A DNA stretch of 23,342 nucleotides from positions 1 through 23,342 of IMG/VR virus record IMGVR_UViG_3300018423_000069. One strand, given 5' to 3'. A program made the translations under genes and the position numbers. This stretch comes from a virus. Below are positions 4,482-18,191 of this stretch, one piece after another. Every line of letters starts with the position of its first letter. Position 1 is the first letter of the stretch. Under the pieces are notes generated by a model. That model searched no databases. It had not been told where the DNA came from and saw nothing but the letters and a program-made list of their open reading frames with translations.

Positions 4482-4518
4482 GGTGTCTCTTCCTATGAAA
4501 TGACGAAAAAAATGGCTC

Positions 4519-4818
4519 CTACTTGGGAGCCACGGTTATGGCCCTTTGGGCCAGTTGCTGAAGCTGGCGCACGTTCCATTCGGTGTCCTGTGCCCAGTCA
4601 ATTTCGTAAGCTAAAAACATTTGCAGCACGTCTCTGAACAAAGGCGCACAGGCGATCAGCCTTGCGTTCGCACGATCCCTTGCTGGAGATCGTCCTACCG
4701 TTTGGCAATCGGCAATTAGTTCACCGGACTTAGTCCGAATCTTGACTCCACCGTCACGGGTGTCTACCGCCCACGGCCCTGGAGTCGAGGCAACCGCCAA
4801 TGTCTTGTCGTAGGGCAT
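4519..4818 (-). CDS. Ea22/Ead-like phage early protein
   Basis: A 99-residue protein with the two hallmarks of a widespread phage early-region family: TPGPWAVD near the start (12-19) and RANARLIACAPL at 49-60. Between them is a short beta-rich stretch (VKIRTKSGELIADC). Members are usually encoded next to replication genes; their biochemical role is unknown. The start codon overlaps the stop of the preceding gene as TAATG (4820-4816), indicating translational coupling. Confidence 0.75.
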   Translation of the reverse strand: MPYDKTLAVASTPGPWAVDTRDGGVKIRTKSGELIADCQTVGRSPARDRANARLIACAPLFRDVLQMFLAYEIDWAQDTEWNVRQLQQLAQRAITVAPK

Positions 4819-6270: not shown

Positions 6271-6853
6271 ACCTACTGAATGAGAAAGATGATTGATTGA
6301 TGGTAGAGCAACTCTCCGCTGCCGAGGCCGGAAGGACTTGGACCTTCCCGCCTTTGGAAAGGAAACGATCAATTTCCTCCTTGAAATTCGTCTCGCCTGT
6401 GATCTGATCTGCCTCCTGCAGTCGTTCGCAAAACCGCTCACGGGAACGGATGTCTGCCAGATGAAGCCGATTGATGAGTTGCTGGTGCGATTCTCCAACG
6501 GTAGTTGGTGATTCAACTCTACGTTTCCTTGCTTCGATCTGCGTAACTCTGGTGATCTTCCGTTCGATACACTTTGGACAACGCTTCTGGCTCACTTTGG
6601 TTCGCATGAACTTTGTGCCACAGAAAAGACAAAGCCTTGGCTTCTTCAAGGTCTGCAGGCGTACCATCTGCCGCTCCAGCCTGCGGTTCTCCATCTGCCG
6701 CTGCGACTGCCGTTTGTAACGGCACTCCTGCGAACAAGTCACCTTCGTTCGGTTCGCGTTGAGCCAGAACGATTTCCCGCAGACCACGCAGGTACGCTCC
6801 TCCGTGTACGCCTTGTTGGAGCGGTGCGATTGGCGGATTTGATGATCTTTCAA
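6158..6853 (-). CDS. Two-module zinc-finger phage protein
   Basis: A 231-residue protein with two four-cysteine zinc modules: C22/C25/C40/C44 (CVVCGKSF...CSQEC) and C75/C78/C92/C95 (CLFCGTKF...CPKC). A basic helix rich in Arg/Gln separates them, and a long helical part follows. FLSKGGKVQVLP (about 168-179) is a motif seen in many phage DNA-binding proteins. Likely a nucleic-acid-binding regulator or recombination accessory; the exact role is unknown. The only sensible start is TTG 6853, which overlaps the previous stop as TTGA and has AGGA about 12 bases upstream. The last 37 codons overlap the nuclease gene and lose protein character, so the ending is less certain. Confidence 0.7.
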   Translation of the reverse strand: MKDHQIRQSHRSNKAYTEERTCVVCGKSFWLNANRTKVTCSQECRYKRQSQRQMENRRLERQMVRLQTLKKPRLCLFCGTKFMRTKVSQKRCPKCIERKITRVTQIEARKRRVESPTTVGESHQQLINRLHLADIRSRERFCERLQEADQITGETNFKEEIDRFLSKGGKVQVLPASAAESCSTINQSSFSFSRYGETGSSTFGLPEFLGGAVFGASEGTETSGFDSELGV

Positions 6854-7404
6854 AACGGCACGTCCTGCTCTTCATAGTTGCTTTGATCCGATTCCTCTGC
6901 GTCTGCGTTCGGATCTTTTTTGGGTGGAGATTCCTCTTCCTTGAAAGGAATGCTATCGGCGTGGATCTCGTCAGGGGTGATCCACCTATCAATGTTTACC
7001 CAATTGCCTTTGTGGACCACTTGGGCGTAGGCGGACATTCCGACCAAATCCTCCAGCGCAGAGATCTGCTTCACGCCTGCGGCATGGAGAAACGCACCTA
7101 CGAACTTCTTCGTTCGGCCTACCTTCGATTCCTTGTCCGTTGTGATCTGGGTCATCGGATCGTACACATCCTTGAGGATGCCAGCCCGGTCAGGGTAGTT
7201 GTCCGCTTCAAAGACAATGAGCAACTTGCGATCACCATCCCTGTCGGTGAAGTTTGTTCCATCCTTCTTGCCTTCCAGCACCCTTGCACACGTCAACAAA
7301 TGGCGACCTGGAGAGAGACGTGGCTTTTCTGAATAGCTGCCACCACTATTGGTGGACGGCTCCATCGCTACGAACATGACATCGTCATCGAATTCCATCT
7401 TCAT
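6850..7404 (-). CDS. Single-stranded DNA-binding protein, DUF669-like
   Basis: A 184-residue protein that should coat ssDNA during phage replication and recombination. An OB-like beta domain spans about 25-150 (HLLTCARVLEGKKDG, KLLIVFEAD, LVGMSAYAQVVHKGNWVNIDRW), followed by a disordered acidic tail that ends EEQDVPF (178-184). This tip closely resembles the acidic '...DDDIPF' end that bacterial SSB proteins use to recruit partners. DUF669-type proteins are commonly encoded next to Sak4/AAA_24 ATPases, as here. AAAGGT precedes ATG 7404; the gap to the ATPase stop is 7 bases. Confidence 0.75.
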   Translation of the reverse strand: MKMEFDDDVMFVAMEPSTNSGGSYSEKPRLSPGRHLLTCARVLEGKKDGTNFTDRDGDRKLLIVFEADNYPDRAGILKDVYDPMTQITTDKESKVGRTKKFVGAFLHAAGVKQISALEDLVGMSAYAQVVHKGNWVNIDRWITPDEIHADSIPFKEEESPPKKDPNADAEESDQSNYEEQDVPF

Positions 7405-8173: not shown

Positions 8174-8414
8174 CTTGATACTCCTTGAATTTGATGAGGG
8201 TTAATCGATACCCTCGTTTTCTCTCGTCCACCGTTCGGTATCCCTCCGGTAGACAGTCATTTTCCTCCAGCAGTGTTCGCTCCGATGGAGTTAACCAGCC
8301 GACGGAAGGTTCCCATACCATCTGCTGAGAGCGAGATCTCTGGATCTTCCGTCGAGACATAAGGTCGCGGTTGCGTTGGAAGAGGTCCAAGACCTTGGAT
8401 TCTCCGCCGCTCAT
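8151..8414 (-). CDS. Hypothetical basic protein, 87 residues
   Basis: No family recognised. It is rich in Arg and Lys, with a middle segment reading VGWLTPSERTLLEENDCLPEGYRTVDERKRGY that looks like two helices around a turn. There are no Cys clusters and no membrane segment. ATG 8414 overlaps the HTH gene stop as ATGA, and the gene's end overlaps the Sak4 start by 23 bases. Tight packing on both sides supports a real gene transcribed with the recombination module. Confidence 0.65.
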   Translation of the reverse strand: MSGGESKVLDLFQRNRDLMSRRKIQRSRSQQMVWEPSVGWLTPSERTLLEENDCLPEGYRTVDERKRGYRLTLIKFKEYQDGRKIIG

Positions 8415-9641: not shown

Positions 9642-9812
9642 GTGAAGTACTACAGACAACTTTTTAATAACAAGTATCTCTTTAAGTCTGTGGGGACAGG
9701 CTCAAAGAAGGAAATCCAAAAGACCGTCGAAGGTTTGCAGCCTGTTACCCGCAAGGATTATGTTCGTTGTGCCCAATTTTGGAAAAACACTATTCTTTTT
9801 GAGCCTTTATGA
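9642..9812 (+). CDS. Small basic protein coupled to the repressor
   Basis: A 56-residue frame from GTG 9642, preceded by AAAGGG 5 bases upstream. The frame is open further back to TTG 9570, but that start lies among operators and has no ribosome site. The peptide is basic and aromatic (VKYYRQLFNNKYLFKSVG...RKDYVRCAQFW). It is unlike any family I know. Its stop overlaps the repressor start as ATGA (9809-9812), so it is probably translated with the repressor and may modulate it or act as a lysogeny gene. Confidence 0.55.
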   Translation: MKYYRQLFNNKYLFKSVGTGSKKEIQKTVEGLQPVTRKDYVRCAQFWKNTILFEPL

Positions 9813-10543
9813 CTACAGTTTCTGAATCCGCTAGACGTGTCCGGTCTGTCCGCAAGGCGGTTGACCTATCTCAAGCCGAATTTGCAAAGAAAATCGGTAT
9901 CTCCCAACGGAAAATGTCTAGACTTGAAACCGCTCAAGATCTGGATCGTTCTACCGCTCGTCTCATCTCACATCTATTCTCTGTTAGCGAAAAGTGGTTA
10001 ATGTCTGGCGATGACGAAGAGCCTGACTGGGAAAAACTAACCGCTAACGCTGTCCGTGAAACCCTCCAAATCCTCGCGAATTCTGCTGTCCACGAAGAAC
10101 GCAACGGCAAGCCGATTGCCAGTGTGCCCGTCCCAATCTTCGATGCTGTCCCCAACATGGGTGGCGGCAACTTCGTGGAACAGGAAGGATTCATTACCGG
10201 ACATCTCCCCATCCCTTACAATATTTACCAATCGGGTTTCCGCAGGTTCGATCAAAACAAACTTGCCGCCTTTTGCGCTGAAGGCGATTCGATGTCTCCC
10301 ACGATTTCCAGCGGGGATTATGTCGTTGTCACGATGGATCAACAGTACCGAGGTGATGGGATTTATCTCATCCAGTTGTACGAATCCTTACTGATCAAAC
10401 GACTCCAGCGACAATTGGATAACAACATTCTTCTAATCAGTGACAACTCCCAGTATCGTGAACAAACTGTTACAGAAGCAGACGAAAATGCCTTTAGGGT
10501 TTTAGGTAGGTTACTGTGGGTTTCTCACATGTTGAGTTATTGA
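9809..10543 (+). CDS. CI/LexA-type phage repressor (HTH plus S24 peptidase domain)
   Basis: A 244-residue transcriptional repressor. Residues 8-66 form an Xre-type HTH (LSQAEFAKKIGISQRKMSRLE at 20-40). Residues 105-244 form a LexA/S24 domain with GDSMSPTISSGDYVVV (159-174) supplying nucleophile Ser161 and LLIKRLQ (194-200) supplying the base Lys197. This domain mediates dimerisation and, in LexA and lambda CI, RecA-stimulated self-cleavage. I see no clear Ala-Gly cleavage pair in the linker, where the sequence reads DAVPNMGGGNF, so induction could differ from lambda. It should bind the nearby palindromes, repress the divergent early operon and control its own promoter. The integrase starts 3 bases after its stop. 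Confidence 0.88.
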   Translation: MTTVSESARRVRSVRKAVDLSQAEFAKKIGISQRKMSRLETAQDLDRSTARLISHLFSVSEKWLMSGDDEEPDWEKLTANAVRETLQILANSAVHEERNGKPIASVPVPIFDAVPNMGGGNFVEQEGFITGHLPIPYNIYQSGFRRFDQNKLAAFCAEGDSMSPTISSGDYVVVTMDQQYRGDGIYLIQLYESLLIKRLQRQLDNNILLISDNSQYREQTVTEADENAFRVLGRLLWVSHMLSY

Positions 10544-10546
10544 CCG

Positions 10547-11623
10547 ATGGGAAGGGCACGCGAAGATGTGTTCTATGATGCCCGTCGCAAAATGTGGTGC
10601 GGACGCTTTTGGAGTTTGAAACAACCTGGAAAGCGTCCCCCCGTGCGGGATTTGATCGAAGACCATCCGTCTCTTTGCCGCTCAGATATCGACACATCCT
10701 ATCATCGTGTTGAATCTGCCCTGCGTACACAAATCTTGGGTGCGGCCAATGCTGAACCTGTGATGTTCTCCACCGCTGCCGAACGTTGGCTTGATGGATT
10801 ACAGAACCTGCTTGCTCCTCGTACCATCGTGGAATACCGGAGGGCAATGGCCCAGTGGGTCCAGATCAATGGCGATCACTCCATCAAATTCTTCGACAAT
10901 GACGCCAATCAACAGTTCGTCAACGTTCGTCTGAGCAACGGTGCCAGTGACGCCACGATTGCCAAGGACCAGCGGAGCCTGCAGGTCTTTGCCAACTGGC
11001 TCTACGATCAGAACCTGCTGGTCCGGCCCCTGCGTCTACGCAAGCGGAAGGTCACCCAACGGGAACCGGATGTCTACTCCATCACCGAACTGGATCGGCT
11101 GGAGGAGCGACTGACCAAGGCTGGTAATGTCGATTGGCTGCGGATCTACTGGCTGGCCCGATATGCGGTTATGCGTTCGGGTGAAATCTGGGCGCTGCCC
11201 CTCGCGAACGTTCGTACCGATTCCATCGTCGTCAACGACGTGGAGGATCTGCAGTGGACTGTGAAGACCCGCCAACAGCGCGAGATCCCGATGGGCCTCC
11301 GCCTACGGGAGTTGGTGGCGGCGGATCTGGACAATCGGGGGGAGAACGAACGCTGGTGGCTGGATGATGGTCATGGGAATCCAGCGTATGCTTCGGCATG
11401 GGCACTGACCCAGGTGTTCCGGCGTCGTTGCGCCGAACTGGGGATCAAAGGGCCAAAACCCCTGCATGGGATTCGTGCCGCAGGGATCACCAAGATGCTC
11501 TTGGAGTCCGGCGGCAGGGCGGAACTGGTCGCCAACGTCGCAGGGCATTCCGTCGCGGTGATGCTCAAGCACTATGCGATGATTACGTCGGACGATACCA
11601 AAGGGGTGGTGGATTTGCTTTAG
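10547..11623 (+). CDS. int: Tyrosine-family phage integrase
   Basis: A 358-residue site-specific recombinase. An N-terminal DNA-binding part (1-60) leads to a SAM-like core-binding domain (about 72-160: FSTAAERWLDGL, VEYRRAMAQW, ANWLYDQNLL). The catalytic domain shows the full active-site set: R210 (VMRSGEIWAL), K240 (WTVKTRQQREIPM), H307 and R310 (LHGIRAAG), H334 (AGHS), and nucleophile Y343 (KHYAMI). All residues are present, so it should be active for integration and, with a partner, excision. It forms one operon with the repressor (3-base gap) and ends 4 bases into the convergent zinc-type gene. No attP core could be identified without a host sequence. Confidence 0.93.
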   Translation: MGRAREDVFYDARRKMWCGRFWSLKQPGKRPPVRDLIEDHPSLCRSDIDTSYHRVESALRTQILGAANAEPVMFSTAAERWLDGLQNLLAPRTIVEYRRAMAQWVQINGDHSIKFFDNDANQQFVNVRLSNGASDATIAKDQRSLQVFANWLYDQNLLVRPLRLRKRKVTQREPDVYSITELDRLEERLTKAGNVDWLRIYWLARYAVMRSGEIWALPLANVRTDSIVVNDVEDLQWTVKTRQQREIPMGLRLRELVAADLDNRGENERWWLDDGHGNPAYASAWALTQVFRRRCAELGIKGPKPLHGIRAAGITKMLLESGGRAELVANVAGHSVAVMLKHYAMITSDDTKGVVDLL

Positions 11624-11913
11624 TCAAAGTTGCTGAACTTGACCTCGTAACCAAGACGGAACCACTTGGGGTCTGCACCCGCCTTGATCAAACGTCTCTT
11701 GCAGCTAGGGCCGATCAAGTGATCGCCCATTGAGGTTGTACTGTCTGATCCAACGTACTGAGACTCTGGCGAATCGGGTGGCAGAATTTCACCGTCGATG
11801 TTGAACTCAACCATTGACGCAGTGCTGATTTTCGTGATGCGCTTCTCGCACAGGATGCAGGCGTCTGGGTGACCGTGATCTGGTCCATCGTGCTGAAAAT
11901 CGTGGATGTTCAT
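11620..11913 (-). CDS. Hypothetical protein with CxxC motif, 97 residues
   Basis: No family recognised. CILC (19-22) and a later Cys71 in GPSCKRRL could bind a metal; the N-terminus is His/Asp-rich (HDFQHDGPDHGHPDAC). GAGGC lies 5 bases before ATG 11913, a leader related to those of the small-gene array further right. It converges with the integrase (4-base overlap). Three 10-bp direct repeats sit just upstream. Confidence 0.65.
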   Translation of the reverse strand: MNIHDFQHDGPDHGHPDACILCEKRITKISTASMVEFNIDGEILPPDSPESQYVGSDSTTSMGDHLIGPSCKRRLIKAGADPKWFRLGYEVKFSNFD

Positions 11914-12311: not shown

Positions 12312-12630
12312 AATAACCTCTCACTTGTAATTCTTTAGTTGTAAAATTGTTTAATTGTAAAAACGCTGCAGCCCAGACGGATACTGGGCTAGCGGTTACT
12401 TGTTACAATTATAGGGGGTATGGAGGGGGGGGGGGGAGGATGGTGTAAATTTTTTTTCCTTCGTGCAAGCCTCTCGCGTATACGCGTGTACATATATATA
12501 ATTAATTAATTAATAATAATAATAATAATAATTGTAATACAATTAATATAATATAAGAAAGATAATAGATAGAATCTGGGCTAGCGGGTTTTTGTTGGGG
12601 GTAATGCTAACACTACAATTGTAGTACAAG
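12312..12630. repeat. Low-complexity intergenic spacer
   Basis: 319 bases without a gene. It holds a G12 run (12425-12436) after GGGGG at 12414, a T-run, the perfect palindrome CGCGTATACGCG (12475-12486), AT, ATTA and ATA microsatellites (12492-12532), the palindrome ATTGTAATACAAT (12531-12543), and a 12-bp direct repeat CTGGGCTAGCGG at 12384-12395 and 12576-12587. The neighbouring sequence has none of these features. Confidence 0.7.
12359..12394 (-). terminator. Rho-independent terminator after the serine recombinase operon
   Basis: On the minus strand CGCT-AGCCCAG, a 7-base loop, CTGGGCT, a two-base bulge and AGCG are followed directly by TTTTT (12363-12359). The stem is 11 bp. It ends the leftward small-gene/serine recombinase transcript. 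Confidence 0.7.
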
Positions 12631-13386
12631 TCAGTCCGAACCCCCATGCTGTCCGCAGGACTCGCGCCGCAAGGCCGCACGGTGCAGGGCGTGGAGCCTG
12701 CTGATGCTGATCGGTGTGCCTACCTCGCTGGTGAATCCCTCCTCCCAGAGTTGCGGGGGGATCACCGCCCACTTGAGTTTGCGCTCCTCACGGAGGTGGT
12801 AGATCCGCTCCGTGATGCCGGGGTAGCGTTCCTCCAAGGAGATCCGCCCCTCGCACTTGCCTACCCCAGCGCGGGTTAGCTTGCCGCTGGAACCCCGTGC
12901 CCTCCTTCGAGCCCCCCGCAGCTTGAGGACCGTTTGCGCCTTGTCCCATTCCCGTAAAGCGCCAAGGATCTGCCGGATCAGTTTGCGGGTGGGGTTCTCA
13001 TCATCGTCGCCCGTGAAGGATTCCGGTGCGTCCACGGGGATCAGTTGGATGCCGACGGATTGGAGGTAGGTGTGTCCTAGTTCCTGCACCATCAGATCCC
13101 TGCTGAAGCGAGAGGCGTCCTCCACCAGCAGCAGGCTGACCTCGTTCTTCGCCATCCAGTCGAGCAGGTCGGTCAGACCTGGACGAGTGTGGATCGGGTC
13201 ACTGCCACTGACGGCAGCATCGTATGCCCCACGCACCAGCGTGAGATCCTGCTGGAAGGCGTAGGCTTCGATGGCGGCCTTCTGCCGCACGTCGGAATCG
13301 CCACCAACGTTCGTGGCGCTGGAGGTGCGGAGGTAGTAGCAGGCTTCAGTACGTTTGTTCTTCGTCGTCGTCGTCGAGTTCTTCAT
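12631..13386 (-). CDS. Serine recombinase (resolvase/invertase family)
   Basis: A 251-residue serine recombinase. The N-terminal catalytic domain (about 14-155) shows YYLRTSS (17-23) with probable nucleophile Ser22, and EDASRFSRDL (89-98) supplying Arg93 and Arg96, followed by the E-helix-like IRQILGALREWDKA (137-150). The C-terminal part (160-251) is short and basic with an HTH-like stretch (LKWAVIPPQLWEEGFTSEVGTPISISRLHALHR). This is longer than a resolvase (about 185) but far shorter than large serine integrases. Roles could be resolution, inversion or cassette insertion. ATG 13386 has AAAGGAAA upstream and overlaps the previous gene by 41 bases. The same phage also has a tyrosine integrase. 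Confidence 0.85.
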   Translation of the reverse strand: MKNSTTTTKNKRTEACYYLRTSSATNVGGDSDVRQKAAIEAYAFQQDLTLVRGAYDAAVSGSDPIHTRPGLTDLLDWMAKNEVSLLLVEDASRFSRDLMVQELGHTYLQSVGIQLIPVDAPESFTGDDDENPTRKLIRQILGALREWDKAQTVLKLRGARRRARGSSGKLTRAGVGKCEGRISLEERYPGITERIYHLREERKLKWAVIPPQLWEEGFTSEVGTPISISRLHALHRAALRRESCGQHGGSD

Positions 13387-14062: not shown

Positions 14063-14272
14063 TCAGATCCTTTCGCAACCAAAGGTGAAATAATCTTTCC
14101 GGTCATGCTCTTCAGCATAACCACGGTGGTAGCTGGCGATCTGGTCTGCCGTCATCTCTGAGGCAGGGATACGCCAGCCGTTGGAGTAGTAGTGGGGTTC
14201 CGGCCCACGCCAGTAGTAGGCATCGGCGGAGCCACGGTCATAGGGGCTCACGGTACGATGGCCAGCGGTCAA
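14063..14272 (-). CDS. Conserved phage protein of the 'PYDRGSADAYY' type
   Basis: A 69-residue protein whose core SPYDRGSADAYYWRGPEPHYY, ending in IPASEMTADQIASYHRGYAEEHDRKDY, matches a small protein I recall from many phage and prophage genomes; its function is unknown. Start TTG 14272 is chosen because AAGGAG lies 6 bases upstream and the codon overlaps the preceding stop as TTGA. GTG 14251 has no ribosome site. Confidence 0.7.
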   Translation of the reverse strand: MTAGHRTVSPYDRGSADAYYWRGPEPHYYSNGWRIPASEMTADQIASYHRGYAEEHDRKDYFTFGCERI

Positions 14273-14697
14273 GTTGTCTCCTTTGCGGTGGTTTCCAATG
14301 CGTTGTCCTTGAGGACGGTGAATTGCTTGGTGAATTGGCGGACAACGATGTCCCGCTGTTTCCTGGTGAGGTAGGTTTCGGCACGGTGGCCTTGGCTAGG
14401 GGATTGGGTGGTTCGATAGACGGACCTGAGATACCAGTCCCTTGTGCCGCGCTCCAGCAGGACACAGTGCGTTGAACGTTCGTGTCGGTAACGGTTGGGA
14501 ACCACGCTGCCGGAGTAGAAGGCGTGTTGCACGCCGGAGCGGTTGGCCTTGGGCAGCTTGATCTTGTCCAAGAGTTTTTCTGCCTGATTGGCGAAGTCTC
14601 GCATTTGGAAGATGGTCGTTCCGTGCGTGAGCCACTTCCCGATGGCAGCGTCGATCTTGGGGATGTCTGCTCGTTCCTTCGAGATATTCAGTTTCAT
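14269..14697 (-). CDS. Hypothetical protein, 142 residues
   Basis: No family recognised. It has an N-terminal helical part (MKLNISKERADIPKIDAAIGKW, FANQAEKLLDKIKL) and a basic, aromatic C-terminal half (YRHERSTHCVLLERGTRDWYLRSVYR, TRKQRDIVVRQFTKQF). ATG 14697 shares TAATG with the preceding stop, indicating coupling. Confidence 0.65.
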   Translation of the reverse strand: MKLNISKERADIPKIDAAIGKWLTHGTTIFQMRDFANQAEKLLDKIKLPKANRSGVQHAFYSGSVVPNRYRHERSTHCVLLERGTRDWYLRSVYRTTQSPSQGHRAETYLTRKQRDIVVRQFTKQFTVLKDNALETTAKETT

Positions 14698-14909
14698 TAC
14701 TCACTCCTAGTCAAATCGTCTAAGTTGAAAGGCGTCAATATGCCCATATGGATGCTCAGATCTGTCACTGTGGCAATTTCATAGTCTTGTCTATACCCAA
14801 GCATAGGTGGACCAGAAAAATCCTCTTCATGGCAGTTCTGAATGAAAGACTCCCAATCATCTGTCGGTGGGAGGTATCGTTGCGAAGGTTGTGCGGTCAG
14901 TTGGATCAT
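14697..14909 (-). CDS. Hypothetical protein, 70 residues
   Basis: No family recognised. Acidic, with no Cys cluster or membrane segment. GGAGAGGCAACC precedes ATG 14909, a variant of the repeated leader of this array. A hairpin (14933-14956) separates it from the gene upstream. Confidence 0.6.
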   Translation of the reverse strand: MIQLTAQPSQRYLPPTDDWESFIQNCHEEDFSGPPMLGYRQDYEIATVTDLSIHMGILTPFNLDDLTRSE

Positions 14910-14932
14910 GGTTGCCTCTCCTTGAAGGTTCC

Positions 14933-14956
14933 AGGCCGAGTGTTGCCACTCGACCT
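14933..14956 (-). other. Intergenic hairpin
   Basis: CGAGTG (14937-14942), loop TTGC, CACTCG (14947-14952), extendable past one mismatch by AGG/CCT. No T-run follows on either strand. Confidence 0.6.
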
Positions 14957-14972
14957 AGAGGTAGGGGGTTGG

Positions 14973-15242
14973 TCATAGCGTTGTCACCTCCACGCCGTGG
15001 CGTCGCAGGAAGTTGTTGGTTTCGTAGCCACCGCTGAAGCGGCTGTGTGGTAGGGGTTCTTCAAACTGCAGCTTGTGCGCTGTCGAAATGATTTTCTTTG
15101 GTGCAACATCTACCGTTTCACCGTTCAGTTTTGTGTGCTTGACAGTGTACTTCGTGGCGTTGGAGCGAATCCCATTCTCAGCGAGTGCTGAGATTGCCCA
15201 TTCAATGTACTGAGTACTGATTGCTTTTCGATTCGTGATCAT
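14973..15242 (-). CDS. Hypothetical protein, 89 residues
   Basis: No family recognised. Basic overall; it begins MITNRKAISTQYIEWAISALAENG (a helix) then strands (TKYTVKHTKLNGETVDV). Leader GGAGAGGCACA precedes ATG 15242. It lies between two intergenic hairpins and looks like one unit of the cassette-like array. Confidence 0.6.
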   Translation of the reverse strand: MITNRKAISTQYIEWAISALAENGIRSNATKYTVKHTKLNGETVDVAPKKIISTAHKLQFEEPLPHSRFSGGYETNNFLRRHGVEVTTL

Positions 15243-15297
15243 TGTGCCTCTCCTTGTTGGCGTTGTTGGTTACCCCACGTTGGAAGAACGCAGGCAA

Positions 15298-15317
15298 TCA
15301 CCCTCCGTGAAGGGTGA
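15298..15317 (-). other. Intergenic hairpin, repeated unit copy 1
   Basis: TCACCCT, loop CCGTGA, AGGGTGA. On the minus strand it is preceded by AACCCAGA-N2-GT and followed by CCTGCGTT, the same flanks as the unit at 15720-15776. Confidence 0.6.
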
Positions 15318-15329
15318 CGGTCTGGGTTC

Positions 15330-15692
15330 TTAGGGTTCTAGATTTATGGAGATGGTGTAGTAAGTCGGTTTCAAGCCCAGTGGTTCGATTTCCGTTGCGG
15401 TTGTTGCGTCACTTACGTCCGCCCAAGCATCTCCTGCTGGAGAGTAGGTATCGCCCAAGTGGAGGAAGGCGGTACGTTCAGCAAGCCATTCATTTGCAGC
15501 GATGACATACACTGTTTCTTGGATGCTGGTGTCGTGTTGGTTTTCAATGTCATCTTCGTCAAGTTGACCTTCGTAATTCCAGTCAATCTTTACACAAAAA
15601 AACTTGTAGCCAATGTGACGTAGTGTACGAACATCTACATCGTTGATGTGGATTGTTGAGTAGGTGTTAGTTGTCATGTCCCAATGAATCAT
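15330..15692 (-). CDS. Hypothetical protein, 120 residues
   Basis: No family recognised. Acidic and rich in Thr/Asp, with beta-like segments at both ends (IGYKFFCVKIDWNYEG, KPTYYTISINLEP) and a helical middle (VYVIAANEWLAERTAFLHLG). CTGGAGGC (15703-15696) lies 3 bases before ATG 15692, one of five exact copies of this leader. Confidence 0.65.
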   Translation of the reverse strand: MIHWDMTTNTYSTIHINDVDVRTLRHIGYKFFCVKIDWNYEGQLDEDDIENQHDTSIQETVYVIAANEWLAERTAFLHLGDTYSPAGDAWADVSDATTATEIEPLGLKPTYYTISINLEP

Positions 15693-15719
15693 ATTGCCTC
15701 CAGTAGTTGGTTGTTAATC

Positions 15720-15761
15720 CCTGCTTAAAACGCAGGTCGCTACGCTCTTTCTAAGAGCGTA
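15720..15761 (-). other. Double intergenic hairpin, repeated unit copy 2
   Basis: Two stems: CCTGC/GCAGG (15720-15736) and the perfect 9-bp TACGCTCTT/AAGAGCGTA with a 3-base loop (15741-15761). Flanks AACCCAGATTGT and CCTGCGTT match the unit near 15298. Confidence 0.65.
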
Positions 15762-15773
15762 ACAATCTGGGTT

Positions 15774-15941
15774 TTAGTAGAAGTGTTCTAGTTCTTCTTG
15801 GACTCCATCGTAGCCGAACTGGTCCAGTAGTTGTCTGTACACATTTCGCATTTCTGCTTCGGTGTGTCCGCCTTCTTCGCCTTCTTCGCACATCTGCACA
15901 TAAGTGGTGATGGCTTCTGTTCGTGTCATCTCCTCAAACAT
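15774..15941 (-). CDS. Hypothetical acidic protein, 55 residues
   Basis: ATG 15941 with GGAGGAG upstream opens MFEEMTRTEAITTYVQMCEEG and ends GYDGVQEELEHFY before TAA 15776-15774. It is strongly acidic and helical, with no known family. It overlaps the stop of the 38-residue gene by 8 bases. The good ribosome site and tight packing support it despite its length. Confidence 0.6.
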   Translation of the reverse strand: MFEEMTRTEAITTYVQMCEEGEEGGHTEAEMRNVYRQLLDQFGYDGVQEELEHFY

Positions 15942-16050
15942 TGGCGTTCTCCTCCGTAGGTTCTTCTTTTGGTATCCTTGCGAGGATACGATCCATCGCT
16001 TTTTCTCTCGCCTTGATCCATCGTTTACGGGCTAGTAGTTTCTGTTTCAT
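15934..16050 (-). CDS. Hypothetical basic peptide, 38 residues
   Basis: ATG 16050 overlaps the preceding stop as ATGA, with AGAGGC upstream. The peptide MKQKLLARKRWIKAREKAMD... is a basic amphipathic helix with an acidic end (PKEEPTEENANV). A basic peptide next to an acidic one (55 residues) could be an interacting pair; that is inference. Confidence 0.55.
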   Translation of the reverse strand: MKQKLLARKRWIKAREKAMDRILARIPKEEPTEENANV

Positions 16051-16322
16051 AGTGCCTCTATTAATTGCGCACAAGAGTGCGAGTTGATTACAATTCTGAT
16101 CTTGCCAACTACGTCGCGATTATCGCGGATTTGCTGCACCCAGTTTTCGATTTGTTCCGTTGTGGTCCGATACGGCGTGAACAAAATAATTTCCGCACCT
16201 TTGTCGCTGACTATTTGCGACCAAATGCGTGCGCCGTTGCCATTTAGCAACGCATCAGAATTCCGATATCTTTGGCAATCAGTTAGATTTGGTCGCGTGA
16301 CTAGGTAGTATTTGATTTTCAT
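16047..16322 (-). CDS. Hypothetical protein, 91 residues
   Basis: No family recognised. It reads as an alternating strand-helix fold: MKIKYYLVTRP, ARIWSQIVSDKGAEIILFTPYRT, EQIENWVQQIRDN, KIRIVINSHS. CTGGAGGC (16332-16325) lies 2 bases before ATG 16322, and it is coupled by ATGA to the next small gene. Confidence 0.65.
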   Translation of the reverse strand: MKIKYYLVTRPNLTDCQRYRNSDALLNGNGARIWSQIVSDKGAEIILFTPYRTTTEQIENWVQQIRDNRDVVGKIRIVINSHSCAQLIEAL

Positions 16323-16370
16323 ACGCCTCCAGATTGTTGTTCGTTGTCCTGCATCACCGTGATGTCAGGT

Positions 16371-16393
16371 CTAGACACCCCGTGGGTGTCTAG
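16371..16393 (-). other. Perfect 10-bp intergenic hairpin
   Basis: CTAGACACCC, loop CGT, GGGTGTCTAG, placed 14 bases after the GP88-like stop. A second small palindrome, CATCAC-C-GTGATG, follows at 16352-16364. No T-run on the minus strand. Confidence 0.7.
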
Positions 16394-16406
16394 GCATGGA
16401 TCTCAG

Positions 16407-17162
16407 TTATGCGATTGCCTCCGCTTTTTGTCGTTGCCAAGATGACTTCATATGCTTGTCAGTCGCATCGACAACGAAGCCAGTTGTGTCGTGCAGTGCC
16501 GTACCTTTTGCGACAACAGCGCGAACAGTATGCGATGGAGTGAGGAAGGTCAGATCGTCCTCGTCACCATCGATGACGGGATATCCAAGGAAGGAGAGTG
16601 GGAACCAGTCACGGAATACTACGTTGATGGTTCCACCACGTTGGAGAACAGTGCGGCAGTAGTCCTCGTTCTTCTCGCTTCGACTGAAGCAGAGCGAGTA
16701 GTTCGCAGGCCAGTGCTTGCTACCAGCAAGGTATGCATCCATTCGATGCTCCTGCTTGGTATAGTCGTAGTACTGGATGTCTGGGAAGTCGGAGAACAGC
16801 GCAGGGATCTGTCGTTCCCAAGAGATGTCGGACATCACGTTCAGTCGAATGACTGGAGTCAGTCCTTTGCGTTGTGCTTTGCGCCGGAACGCAGAGACTT
16901 CAGCATAGAGTTGCTCCTTGAATGGCAGTCGATCTTCAAAGAAGTTGATTGTCTTCTTGATTCTCGCATTCATCACAGACTTCATTTGTCCACGTCCTTG
17001 GTAGAGCAAGCAGACGTTGGAACAACCTTCGGATCTGCTAGGACATACCTCGTAGCCCGAAGTATCTGCTGCTGCTAGGTTTAGTCCGGCAGTCAGAAAG
17101 CCAAGTTGCTTGTTGTCACTCTTCTCAAGTTTTGGATTTCCGCTTGTGCTTAACAGTGCCAT
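16407..17162 (-). CDS. GP88-like phage protein
   Basis: A 251-residue protein matching, from memory, the mycobacteriophage 'gene product 88' family (GP88). Diagnostic parts are GFLTAGLNLAAADTSGYEVCP (21-41), the cysteine cluster C40, C47, C51 (CPSRSEGCSNVC), GRGQMKSVMNARIKKTINFFEDR (56-78), VIRLNVMSDISWE and QYYDYTK. Family function is unknown; the clustered cysteines and the later IQYYDYTK and LPANYS-like strands recall radical-SAM-like or metal-binding barrels, which is inference. CTGGAGGC (17173-17166) lies 3 bases before ATG 17162. It is the only long gene in the small-gene array. Confidence 0.7.
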   Translation of the reverse strand: MALLSTSGNPKLEKSDNKQLGFLTAGLNLAAADTSGYEVCPSRSEGCSNVCLLYQGRGQMKSVMNARIKKTINFFEDRLPFKEQLYAEVSAFRRKAQRKGLTPVIRLNVMSDISWERQIPALFSDFPDIQYYDYTKQEHRMDAYLAGSKHWPANYSLCFSRSEKNEDYCRTVLQRGGTINVVFRDWFPLSFLGYPVIDGDEDDLTFLTPSHTVRAVVAKGTALHDTTGFVVDATDKHMKSSWQRQKAEAIA

Positions 17163-17240
17163 ATTGCCTCCAGAAATTATTATTTTTAGGACACTACTGA
17201 ACGTAGTTGTCCCAGTGGCAGCAGGTTGGAAACCTACTAA

Positions 17241-17261
17241 CAGACTGCCGATAGCAGTCTG
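17241..17261 (-). other. Intergenic hairpin
   Basis: CAGACTGC, loop CGATA, GCAGTCTG: an 8-bp perfect stem 9 bases after the 73-residue gene. AGGTT-GGA-AACCT lies beside it at 17223-17235. Confidence 0.65.
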
Positions 17262-17270
17262 ATGCTAGGT

Positions 17271-17492
17271 TTACATTTTAAGCCACTCGTCGAATGTTAG
17301 CAGTGGCTTGCCAGTTGTTGAGTCGTTACCTTTCCCGTCGTTCGCAGCATATCGGTACGTTTCGTATCGATCACGCAATTTGCCTTGGGAAAAGTGGTCG
17401 AAGTCAATCTCACTTAGAGCATTCTCCATCTCAAGCAAGGAATCGAATTGTAATTTCTTGCCTTTTCTAATCACTGAGCAAGTGAATGACAT
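17271..17492 (-). CDS. Hypothetical protein, 73 residues
   Basis: Start ATG 17492 is chosen because CTGGAGGC (17503-17496) lies 3 bases upstream; the frame is open further back but there it runs into a large hairpin. Sequence MSFTCSVIRKGKKLQFDSLLEMENAL...LLTFDEWLKM, charged and probably globular. No family recognised. Confidence 0.65.
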   Translation of the reverse strand: MSFTCSVIRKGKKLQFDSLLEMENALSEIDFDHFSQGKLRDRYETYRYAANDGKGNDSTTGKPLLTFDEWLKM

Positions 17493-17526
17493 ATTGCCTC
17501 CAGAATTTTGGTTGTGGTGCATCGTT

Positions 17527-17575
17527 GTGAGTACACCAGTCAACGCACGATGGTGTGCGTTGGAACTGTACTCAC
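17527..17575 (-). other. Long interrupted hairpin
   Basis: Nested stems GTGAGTAC/GTACTCAC (8 bp), AGT/ACT (3 bp) and CAACGCAC/GTGCGTTG (8 bp), with a 6-base loop: 19 base pairs in 49 bases. The TGA stop of the upstream 39-residue gene (17574-17572) lies in the outer arm. Confidence 0.75.
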
Positions 17576-17691
17576 TTGCGTTTGCGTTTGTAGTACTTGA
17601 CACCACTTTCTAAGTGTTCCAATGGTGACATGCGCCACATTCGTAGGCGTTTGTACTGAGGAAATTGACTGACCACTAATTGCTTTCGCAT
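17572..17691 (-). CDS. Hypothetical basic peptide, 39 residues
   Basis: ATG 17691 with CTGGAGGC (17702-17695) 3 bases upstream, ending at TGA 17574-17572. MRKQLVVSQFPQYKRLRMWR...YYKRKRK is very basic with a Lys/Arg end, likely to bind nucleic acid or phospholipid. It carries the same leader as its longer neighbours, which is the main support. Confidence 0.6.
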   Translation of the reverse strand: MRKQLVVSQFPQYKRLRMWRMSPLEHLESGVKYYKRKRK

Positions 17692-17717
17692 GATGCCTCC
17701 AGAATAAGTTGATAATC

Positions 17718-17780
17718 GCCATGTTTAGTCATGGCCTACAGTCCACCTTGATGCACTCTAGGCCATGCCCGAAGGCATGG
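17718..17780 (-). other. Two hairpins, one with a UUCG tetraloop
   Basis: GCCATG-TTTAGT-CATGGC at 17718-17735, and CCATGCC-TTCG-GGCATGG (minus-strand reading) at 17780-17763. A C(UUCG)G loop is among the most stable RNA tetraloops. The second stem lies within the end of the 88-residue frame. Confidence 0.65.
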
Positions 17781-17995
17781 TTTCTGGAGGAGGCATAGAT
17801 CCACCACGCTTTCGCCCAACGTTGGACGTACTGTTTTCTGGTGAATCTTTTTGAACGGACTGCTTTGCTAGTCCGCCTAGTTTCAGCGTGAATCTTATTG
17901 ACTACCGTGGTTAGGCGTTCACGCTTTGAATTGTCGAAAATCTTTTGCAGGGCCGGAATGACGGATTTACTTACAACATCCTTGACCGGCAGCAA
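17729..17995 (-). CDS. Hypothetical basic protein, 88 residues
   Basis: The first gene after the strong minus promoter at 18045-18074. The frame has only a TTG (17995) near its start, but it is open and protein-like further back (SDKARQQARHEWLLPVKD), to within a few bases of the expected transcript start. An ATG at 18003 in another frame with AGGCAAGG before it opens only 10 codons (MSGCCRSRML), possibly a leader peptide. The protein is Lys/Arg-rich (RRTSKAVRSKRFTRKQYVQRWAKAWW), suggesting nucleic-acid binding. No family recognised; the start is unsure. Confidence 0.5.
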   Translation of the reverse strand: MLPVKDVVSKSVIPALQKIFDNSKRERLTTVVNKIHAETRRTSKAVRSKRFTRKQYVQRWAKAWWIYASSRNHAFGHGLECIKVDCRP

Positions 17996-18023
17996 CCACT
18001 CATGCCTTGCCTGCTGTCTTGCC

Positions 18024-18052
18024 TTGTCTGAATTGTTGAGTACTATTATACT
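18024..18052 (+). promoter_or_regulatory. Promoter for the packaging genes
   Basis: TTGTCT (18024-18029), 17-base spacer, TATACT (18047-18052). It points right toward the small terminase with a leader of about 130 bases. Its -10 box overlaps that of the leftward promoter. Confidence 0.65.
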
Positions 18053-18074
18053 CTAATCGTCTAATGAATGTCAA
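18045..18074 (-). promoter_or_regulatory. Consensus sigma70 promoter for the small-gene array
   Basis: TTGACA (18074-18069), 18-base spacer, TATAAT (18050-18045): both boxes are perfect. It drives leftward transcription with a start expected near 18038. A TAGAC-type operator occupies most of the spacer. Confidence 0.8.
18053..18065 (-). promoter_or_regulatory. TAGAC-type operator inside the leftward promoter
   Basis: ATTAGACGATTAG on the minus strand, 12 of 13 bases identical to 9515-9527 in the repressor control region. Confidence 0.55.
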
Positions 18075-18191
18075 ATCAACGCCTAACACTTTATAGAAAT
18101 AATGTTGATAGGATTTGATTTGCATCAGACTGGCTTGCTATTGCGTTGCCTTGTCTGATGTTGCAACCATTACATCACAAAACTGGCTAGC

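Follow-up and report, generated by a model that had tools for sequence, protein, structure and literature searches.

A modular leftward operon of small genes with a recurring ribosome-binding site, hairpin-bearing gaps and a structured leader in an IMG/VR virus record

Introduction

Between the early genes of phage T7, imperfect intercistronic hairpins with internal loops lie on one transcript and serve as RNase III sites, and in T4-like phages the stem of the promoter early stem-loops (PeSLs) is terminator-like. PeSLs, linkers made of a promoter and a stem-loop, are thought to drive gene shuffling, as summarized in a secondary account (PMC4503421, citing Arbiol 2010, Comeau 2014). The Cluster K mycobacteriophages, as far as the cited description goes, carry a short conserved sequence termed SAS, composed of a Shine-Dalgarno (SD) core and additional non-SD bases and located a few nt 5' of the ATG in many non-structural genes that belong to unrelated families (PMC3203893). 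According to the same description, about half of the SAS have an imperfect inverted repeat just upstream (ESAS); these repeats, 17 bp long, have a consensus in common, and the authors saw little to support their pairing as RNA (PMC3203893). In phage T4, a pseudoknot in the 5' leader of the gene 32 mRNA controls initiation (PMC3014915). Here we describe a related layout in IMG/VR virus record IMGVR_UViG_3300018423_000069, analysed over its positions 1 to 23,342 (the 23,342-nt stretch called the window below): a leftward operon in which unrelated small genes share a near-fixed ribosome-binding site (RBS), the gaps hold hairpins and a long structured leader precedes the first gene.

The operon is real, modular and RNA-rich; related layouts are known, and the structured leader region upstream of its genes is new. 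A sequence-only reading of this DNA had stated that no described phage system had such a layout, a statement that has to be withdrawn since Cluster K SAS/ESAS and T4 PeSLs are close analogues. Like SAS in the published portrayal, the window has an asymmetric start-linked sequence with conserved non-SD bases on unrelated gene families. Unlike SAS, given there as the 13-bp GGGATAGGAGCCC, the RBSs listed for the genes of the window are CTGGAGGC and GAGGC variants. Its stems, in contrast to the ESAS repeats so described, have no shared consensus yet are well paired, and it possesses an anti-SD leader whereas none is seen in the cited Cluster K description. The stem-loop linkers between small swappable genes and the shuffling between relatives resemble what is reported of PeSLs, but the gaps differ from PeSLs as outlined above in having neither a strong promoter (the sole 12/12 match is upstream of the whole operon) nor a T-run terminator (longest T-run 4). 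With the T7 RNase III sites the window has in common imperfect intercistronic hairpins between small genes, the cleavage of its own hairpins being putative. As in T4 gene 32, the leader carries a pseudoknot with a predicted control of initiation; unlike it, the anti-SD of the window would close off a domain with several hairpins around the first SD. Finally, small genes separated by hairpin-forming sites are also a property of the integron CALINs of phages (PMC9892861), from which the window differs by the lack of attC boxes in its gaps. The locus is a compact case joining phage gene exchange, a fixed RBS linker and intercistronic RNA structure outside mycobacteriophages and T4. Its swap sites mark which small genes are functional plug-ins and, should the leader prove to be a switch, the few phage translational leaders known so far would gain a new structured RNA.

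The relative used throughout is L007 (IMGVR 3300040806_002135), whose GP88 protein is 73% identical to that of the window and in which several neighbouring genes are 92-97% identical at the DNA level. Another contig, L034, is 100% identical to L007 across their shared 8 kb, so the comparison of the whole operon amounts to one independent relative. The leader was compared in three sequences, those of the window, L007 and L041.

A recurring ribosome-binding site

Five exact copies of the octamer CTGGAGGC occur in the 23,342 nt, each of them on the minus strand; the opposite strand has 0 and a reversed-pattern control also gives 0. All five lie 2-3 nt 5' of an ATG (starts 15692, 16322, 17162, 17492 and 17691) and three are extended to TTCTGGAGGC, exactly as the sequence-only reading had described. 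The variants that it listed were found as well, namely AGGAGAGGCAACC at start 14909, AGGAGAGGCACA at 15242, ATAGAGGCACT at 16050 and GCGAGGCACA at 11913. The exact copies are the following.

17695..17702, minus strand: CTGGAGGC leader of gene 17691, predicted sequestered (P = 1.0)
17496..17503, minus strand: CTGGAGGC leader of gene 17492
17166..17173, minus strand: CTGGAGGC leader of gene 17162
16325..16332, minus strand: CTGGAGGC leader of gene 16322
15696..15703, minus strand: CTGGAGGC leader of gene 15692

GGAGG is the SD core, and neither the flanking CT nor the final C can pair with the usual 16S tail. GAGGC is present upstream of 10 starts in this operon against 0/7 starts in the left operon, and a CT before the core together with a C after it was encountered at only 5 of 180 GGAGG-type starts in the other phage loci fetched as controls. 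The sharing of the octamer among genes therefore exceeds SD strength. L007 likewise has five exact copies of CTGGAGGC before ATGs of the same operon, with differing spacers to the ATG, and four further copies, none of which adjoins an ATG.

Gene exchange at the linkers

The genes of the operon, listed in the direction of transcription, compare with L007 as follows.

17572..17691, minus strand: gene 1, 39-aa basic peptide, common to L007 (72%)
17271..17492, minus strand: 73-aa gene, not in L007, which has a 103-aa gene in the matching interval
16407..17162, minus strand: GP88 family protein, 251 aa (PF17338, 1.7e-41)
16047..16322, minus strand: 91-aa gene, in whose place L007 has an unrelated 47-aa gene
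15934..16050, minus strand: 38-aa gene, common to L007
15774..15941, minus strand: 55-aa gene, not in L007; its junctions lie at the SD and the stop codon
15330..15692, minus strand: 120-aa gene, 98% identical in L007
14973..15242, minus strand: 89-aa gene, not in L007, where a 61-aa gene is present
14697..14909, minus strand: 70-aa gene, directly before which L007 has an extra 224-aa gene

Between the leader and 13.9 kb, the window and L007 differ in gene content at six places, with breakpoints at the linkers. These differences bear out the modular gain of genes suggested by the sequence-only reading, and the comparison with a relative that it had proposed as a check finds the cassettes swapping at the leader/stem linkers. 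A start or stop codon lies no more than 10 nt from 10 of the 14 alignment ends (random fraction 0.11) and no more than 20 nt from 12 of them (random fraction 0.20), the other two ends being located in stem H3; the position of the junction varies between the SD, the stop codon and the inside of a stem. The 73-aa gene has been swapped together with stem H5 for the 103-aa gene, which has a different stem. At the site of the 89/61-aa replacement, GGAGGTGACAACGCTATGACC, which in L007 serves the 61-aa gene as RBS and start, persists at the end of the 89-aa gene of the window, a sign of deletion between SD sequences. Relative to the window, the insertions of L007 are the 224-aa gene and an 80-aa gene. 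The former (L007 3529-4203, ACESSGTVRDAF...) contains AHPPCTYL, which we take to resemble a DNA methylase; a family search gave no supporting match.

Hairpins in the gaps

All seven gaps of the window fold better than their dinucleotide shuffles (z -2.5 to -5.1), as do those of L007 in the same comparison (z -1.9 to -5.7), while the stem sequences are mostly unrelated from gap to gap. The longest T-run within the gaps is 4 nt. The earlier description of strong, sequence-unrelated hairpins without a T-run thus holds, with the qualification that genes 8173 (z -3.0) and 4481 (z -3.3) of the left operon also have upstream hairpins. A search for terminator-like matches in the gaps gave a single weak one, at H1, and a total for the region no higher than in shuffles. 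The stems are as follows.

17528..17574, minus strand: H5 stem SL1; alternative SL2 at 17516-17537
17230..17273, minus strand: H3 stem SL1; SL2 at 17221-17237 and a third hairpin at 17188-17213
16372..16392, minus strand: H4 stem; SL2 at 16348-16369
15726..15776, minus strand: H1 stem SL1 with 24-nt arms; SL2 at 15720-15736
15284..15331, minus strand: H2 stem SL1 with 21-nt arms; SL2 at 15274-15294
14930..14959, minus strand: H6 stem with a GCAA tetraloop

H1, H2, H3 and H5 have imperfect arms of 20-24 nt, about two helical turns, with internal loops; H4 and H6 have no convincing long outer stem, the outer arm of H4 being weak (p = 0.69). In H1-H5 the sequence just 3' of the inner stem can form SL2, partly re-using the 3' strand of SL1 or its flank. 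Summed over the five gaps, these SL2 tails reach -60.2 against -31.7 +- 4.8 in shuffles, a value attained by 0/1000 of them, although the SL2 of H2 taken singly is no better than shuffles (p = 0.45). A role of the stems as local anti-SD locks for their own genes was considered and rejected: the SDs of the other genes are, on average, no more paired than in shuffles.

The left-operon hairpins are located at 4482-4590 and 8174-8265 on the minus strand, and a T-run follows the one before gene 4481, giving it the look of a genuine terminator. Elsewhere on that strand, a very strong fold (z about -6) lies at 14100-14189, inside a 69-aa open reading frame (ORF) at 14063-14272.

A promoter and a structured leader

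The leader and its anti-SD, which the sequence-only reading did not contain, are the least ordinary part of the locus. They comprise the following features.

18045..18074, minus strand: sigma70-type promoter TTGACA-18-TATAAT, sole 12/12 match in the region, kept in L007 and L041
17692..18040, minus strand: structured, untranslated 5' leader RNA, about 350 nt from promoter to first ATG
17874..17923, minus strand: leader pseudoknot CGTGAA/TTCACG + CGCCTA/TAGGCG; in the first helix 4/6 pairs changed on both sides, 0 broken
17858..17873, minus strand: leader hairpin GACT/AGTC, pairs invariant
17798..17847, minus strand: long leader arm made of GATTCACC/GGTGGATC and an inner helix, CGTCC/GGGCG; both sides changed in five pairs, 0 broken
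17782..17796, minus strand: anti-SD ATGCCTCCTCCAGAA, complementary to TTCTGGAGGCAT apart from a 3-nt bulge, identical in the window, L007 and L041
17718..17780, minus strand: three hairpins (H0) inside the anti-SD/SD pairing

The best promoter match in a gap (15717-15688) scores 10/12 and overlaps an RBS, and the total of promoter matches is at the shuffled level. An 88-aa ORF at 17729-17995 was discarded as a gene: a 1-nt indel in the relatives breaks its frame and the RNA pairs are kept, so the interval is read as part of the untranslated leader. Across the leader, 29 pairs form in all three sequences, with 0 broken and nine changed on both sides. Shuffles give 3.0 +- 1.4 compensatory pairs, none of 500 reaching nine, and sliding the pairing partner abolishes the signal.

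In the operon transcript, ATGCCTCCTCCAGAA contains the sole complement of TTCTGGAGGC that is at least 8 nt long. For gene 17691, the SD is predicted to be paired with this anti-SD at P = 1.0 in both the window and L007, a level reached by 3% of shuffles, and the SDs of the other genes are on average as accessible as in shuffles, or more. The anti-SD is therefore predicted to lock the start site of the first gene only. In Rfam, no family fitted the leader at its gathering score, the best match in the window being PhotoRC-I at 19.8 bits for a cut-off of 45.

The 5' domain of the leader is common to the window (17940-18030, minus strand) and L041 (1-330, minus strand), and L007 has a different hairpin in its place (645-800); with its 5' domain replaced in L007, the leader is itself modular. 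In addition, TCAGACAAGGCAA has two exact copies on the minus strand, flanking the operon promoter (18019-18031 and 18146-18158), and with up to 2 mismatches it has 4 matches in the window against 0.97 expected. It is a possible candidate operator for the S24-type repressor encoded at 9809.

Explanations of the layout

The explanation that we favour, with moderate confidence, is a modular leftward operon with one promoter, linker-bounded gene exchange, stems acting post-transcriptionally and a leader lock on the first gene. Small accessory genes would be read from the one strong promoter, each linker consisting, as its sequence shows, of a stop codon followed by one or two hairpins, a spacer rich in A and C and the near-fixed RBS CTGGAGGC. 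At these linkers genes are gained, lost and replaced between relatives, as the comparison with L007 shows. Exchange would proceed by illegitimate or short-homology recombination followed by selection for intact genes, aided by the recurring linker and without a dedicated recombinase; no special mechanism is required, short homology and such selection being sufficient. The stems most likely act after transcription, in mRNA processing or in stabilising ends, and would thereby uncouple the fate of one cistron from that of the next. In the folded leader, whose conservation is shown by covariation, the anti-SD is predicted to form a closing helix with the SD of the first gene; that gene is therefore probably translated only once the leader opens.

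Several points weigh against this explanation. The whole operon was found in a single independent relative, L034 being identical to L007 over the shared 8 kb and L041 supplying the leader alone. The leader structure was derived from the same three sequences that served for covariation, so that the count of nine compensatory pairs is somewhat inflated. Breakpoints at gene ends are an ordinary outcome of phage mosaicism, and the binomial test of the breakpoints ignores the selective purging of junctions inside genes. The gaps fold as well in antisense (-458 kcal/mol summed) as in sense (-443 kcal/mol), without RNA-sense bias, and the fold data alone are therefore no proof of a stem function at the RNA level.

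This equal folding of the antisense strand also weighs against a rival proposal, namely that RNase III processes the stems, as it does between the early genes of T7; the 3' strand of a cut SL1 would then refold as SL2 and protect the new 5' end downstream. The two-turn, internally looped arms of H1, H2, H3 and H5, the re-use of the SL1 3' strand or flank in five gaps by SL2 tails that together outfold all shuffles, and the absence of long T-runs all agree with it, while H4 and H6, devoid of a convincing long outer stem, and the unremarkable SL2 of H2 do not; we regard the proposal as a tentative one, short of an even chance. The same hairpins might instead be remnants of terminators or attenuators that RNA polymerase passes with the help of the leader, acting as an antitermination RNA for which the put RNA of HK022 offers a precedent, as presented in PMC9378689. 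A long structured leader right behind the only promoter, with many hairpins downstream, fits such an arrangement, but the gap hairpins have no T-runs and the anti-SD and SD-lock geometry points to translation, which makes it unlikely. We consider equally speculative the wider proposal that the leader represents an undescribed class of regulatory RNA, in which the pseudoknot domain would sense a protein, a small molecule or a trans RNA and open the anti-SD lock, coupled to a plug-in array whose stems would be cut and refolded from SL1 to SL2 to provide an insulated message for each inserted gene.

A DNA-level cassette system, in which the hairpins are recombination sites of the integron attC type or of another recombinase, would suit several features: hairpins that vary in sequence, junctions that are precise, genes for a serine resolvase and a tyrosine integrase close by, the occurrence of integron CALINs in phages (PMC9892861) and the similar folding of both strands. 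Yet RYYYAAC / GTTRRRY boxes are present in 0/7 gaps, which largely refutes attC; the integrase at 10547 matches generic phage, Xer and integron-integrase models weakly, the last two below cut-off; and the junctions fall inconsistently at the SD, at the stop codon or inside a stem. We give this system hardly any credence. It is also very doubtful that, acting in trans, the leader anti-SD binds the RBS of every cassette, repressing the whole operon and so accounting for the conservation of the extended SD. Pairing energies between the leader segment CTATGCCTCCTCCAGAAAC and the RBSs carrying the octamer do range from -14.0 to -16.8 kcal/mol, but the mean for the 180 control GGAGG starts taken from other phage loci is -14.4 (sd 2.2), so the fit is largely one that any strong SD would show, and the prediction has the anti-SD already engaged in cis.

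Genomic context and searches

Besides the operon, the window encodes an S24-type repressor (9809-10543, plus strand), a tyrosine integrase (10547-11623, plus strand), a serine resolvase (12631-13386, minus strand) and the terminase small and large subunits (from 18192 and 18976, plus strand, the latter identified by similarity), from which the minus-strand operon diverges. The integrase, repressor, resolvase and terminase genes make it most likely that the window belongs to an uncultured temperate phage.

Bacterial genomes searched via GP88 and the terminase gave no host or prophage match, and isolated phages and plasmids gave no DNA match, their proteins matching at a distant level only. The 16-mer TTCTGGAGGCAATATG has 12 matches across viral contigs, about the chance level for the estimated size of the collection, and the two relatives among them were those already found through protein searches. 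Three contigs retrieved with a leader pattern (L081-L083) were dismissed as unrelated to the window, and a second leader pattern yielded already-known contigs only.

Between the resolvase gene and the 11973 gene, positions 12436-12560 contain AT-rich microsatellites (TAA and TAAT units) beside a homopolymer C tract. L007 has a different AT microsatellite at the corresponding place (6800-6930); the tract is hypervariable, which is unusual for a phage.

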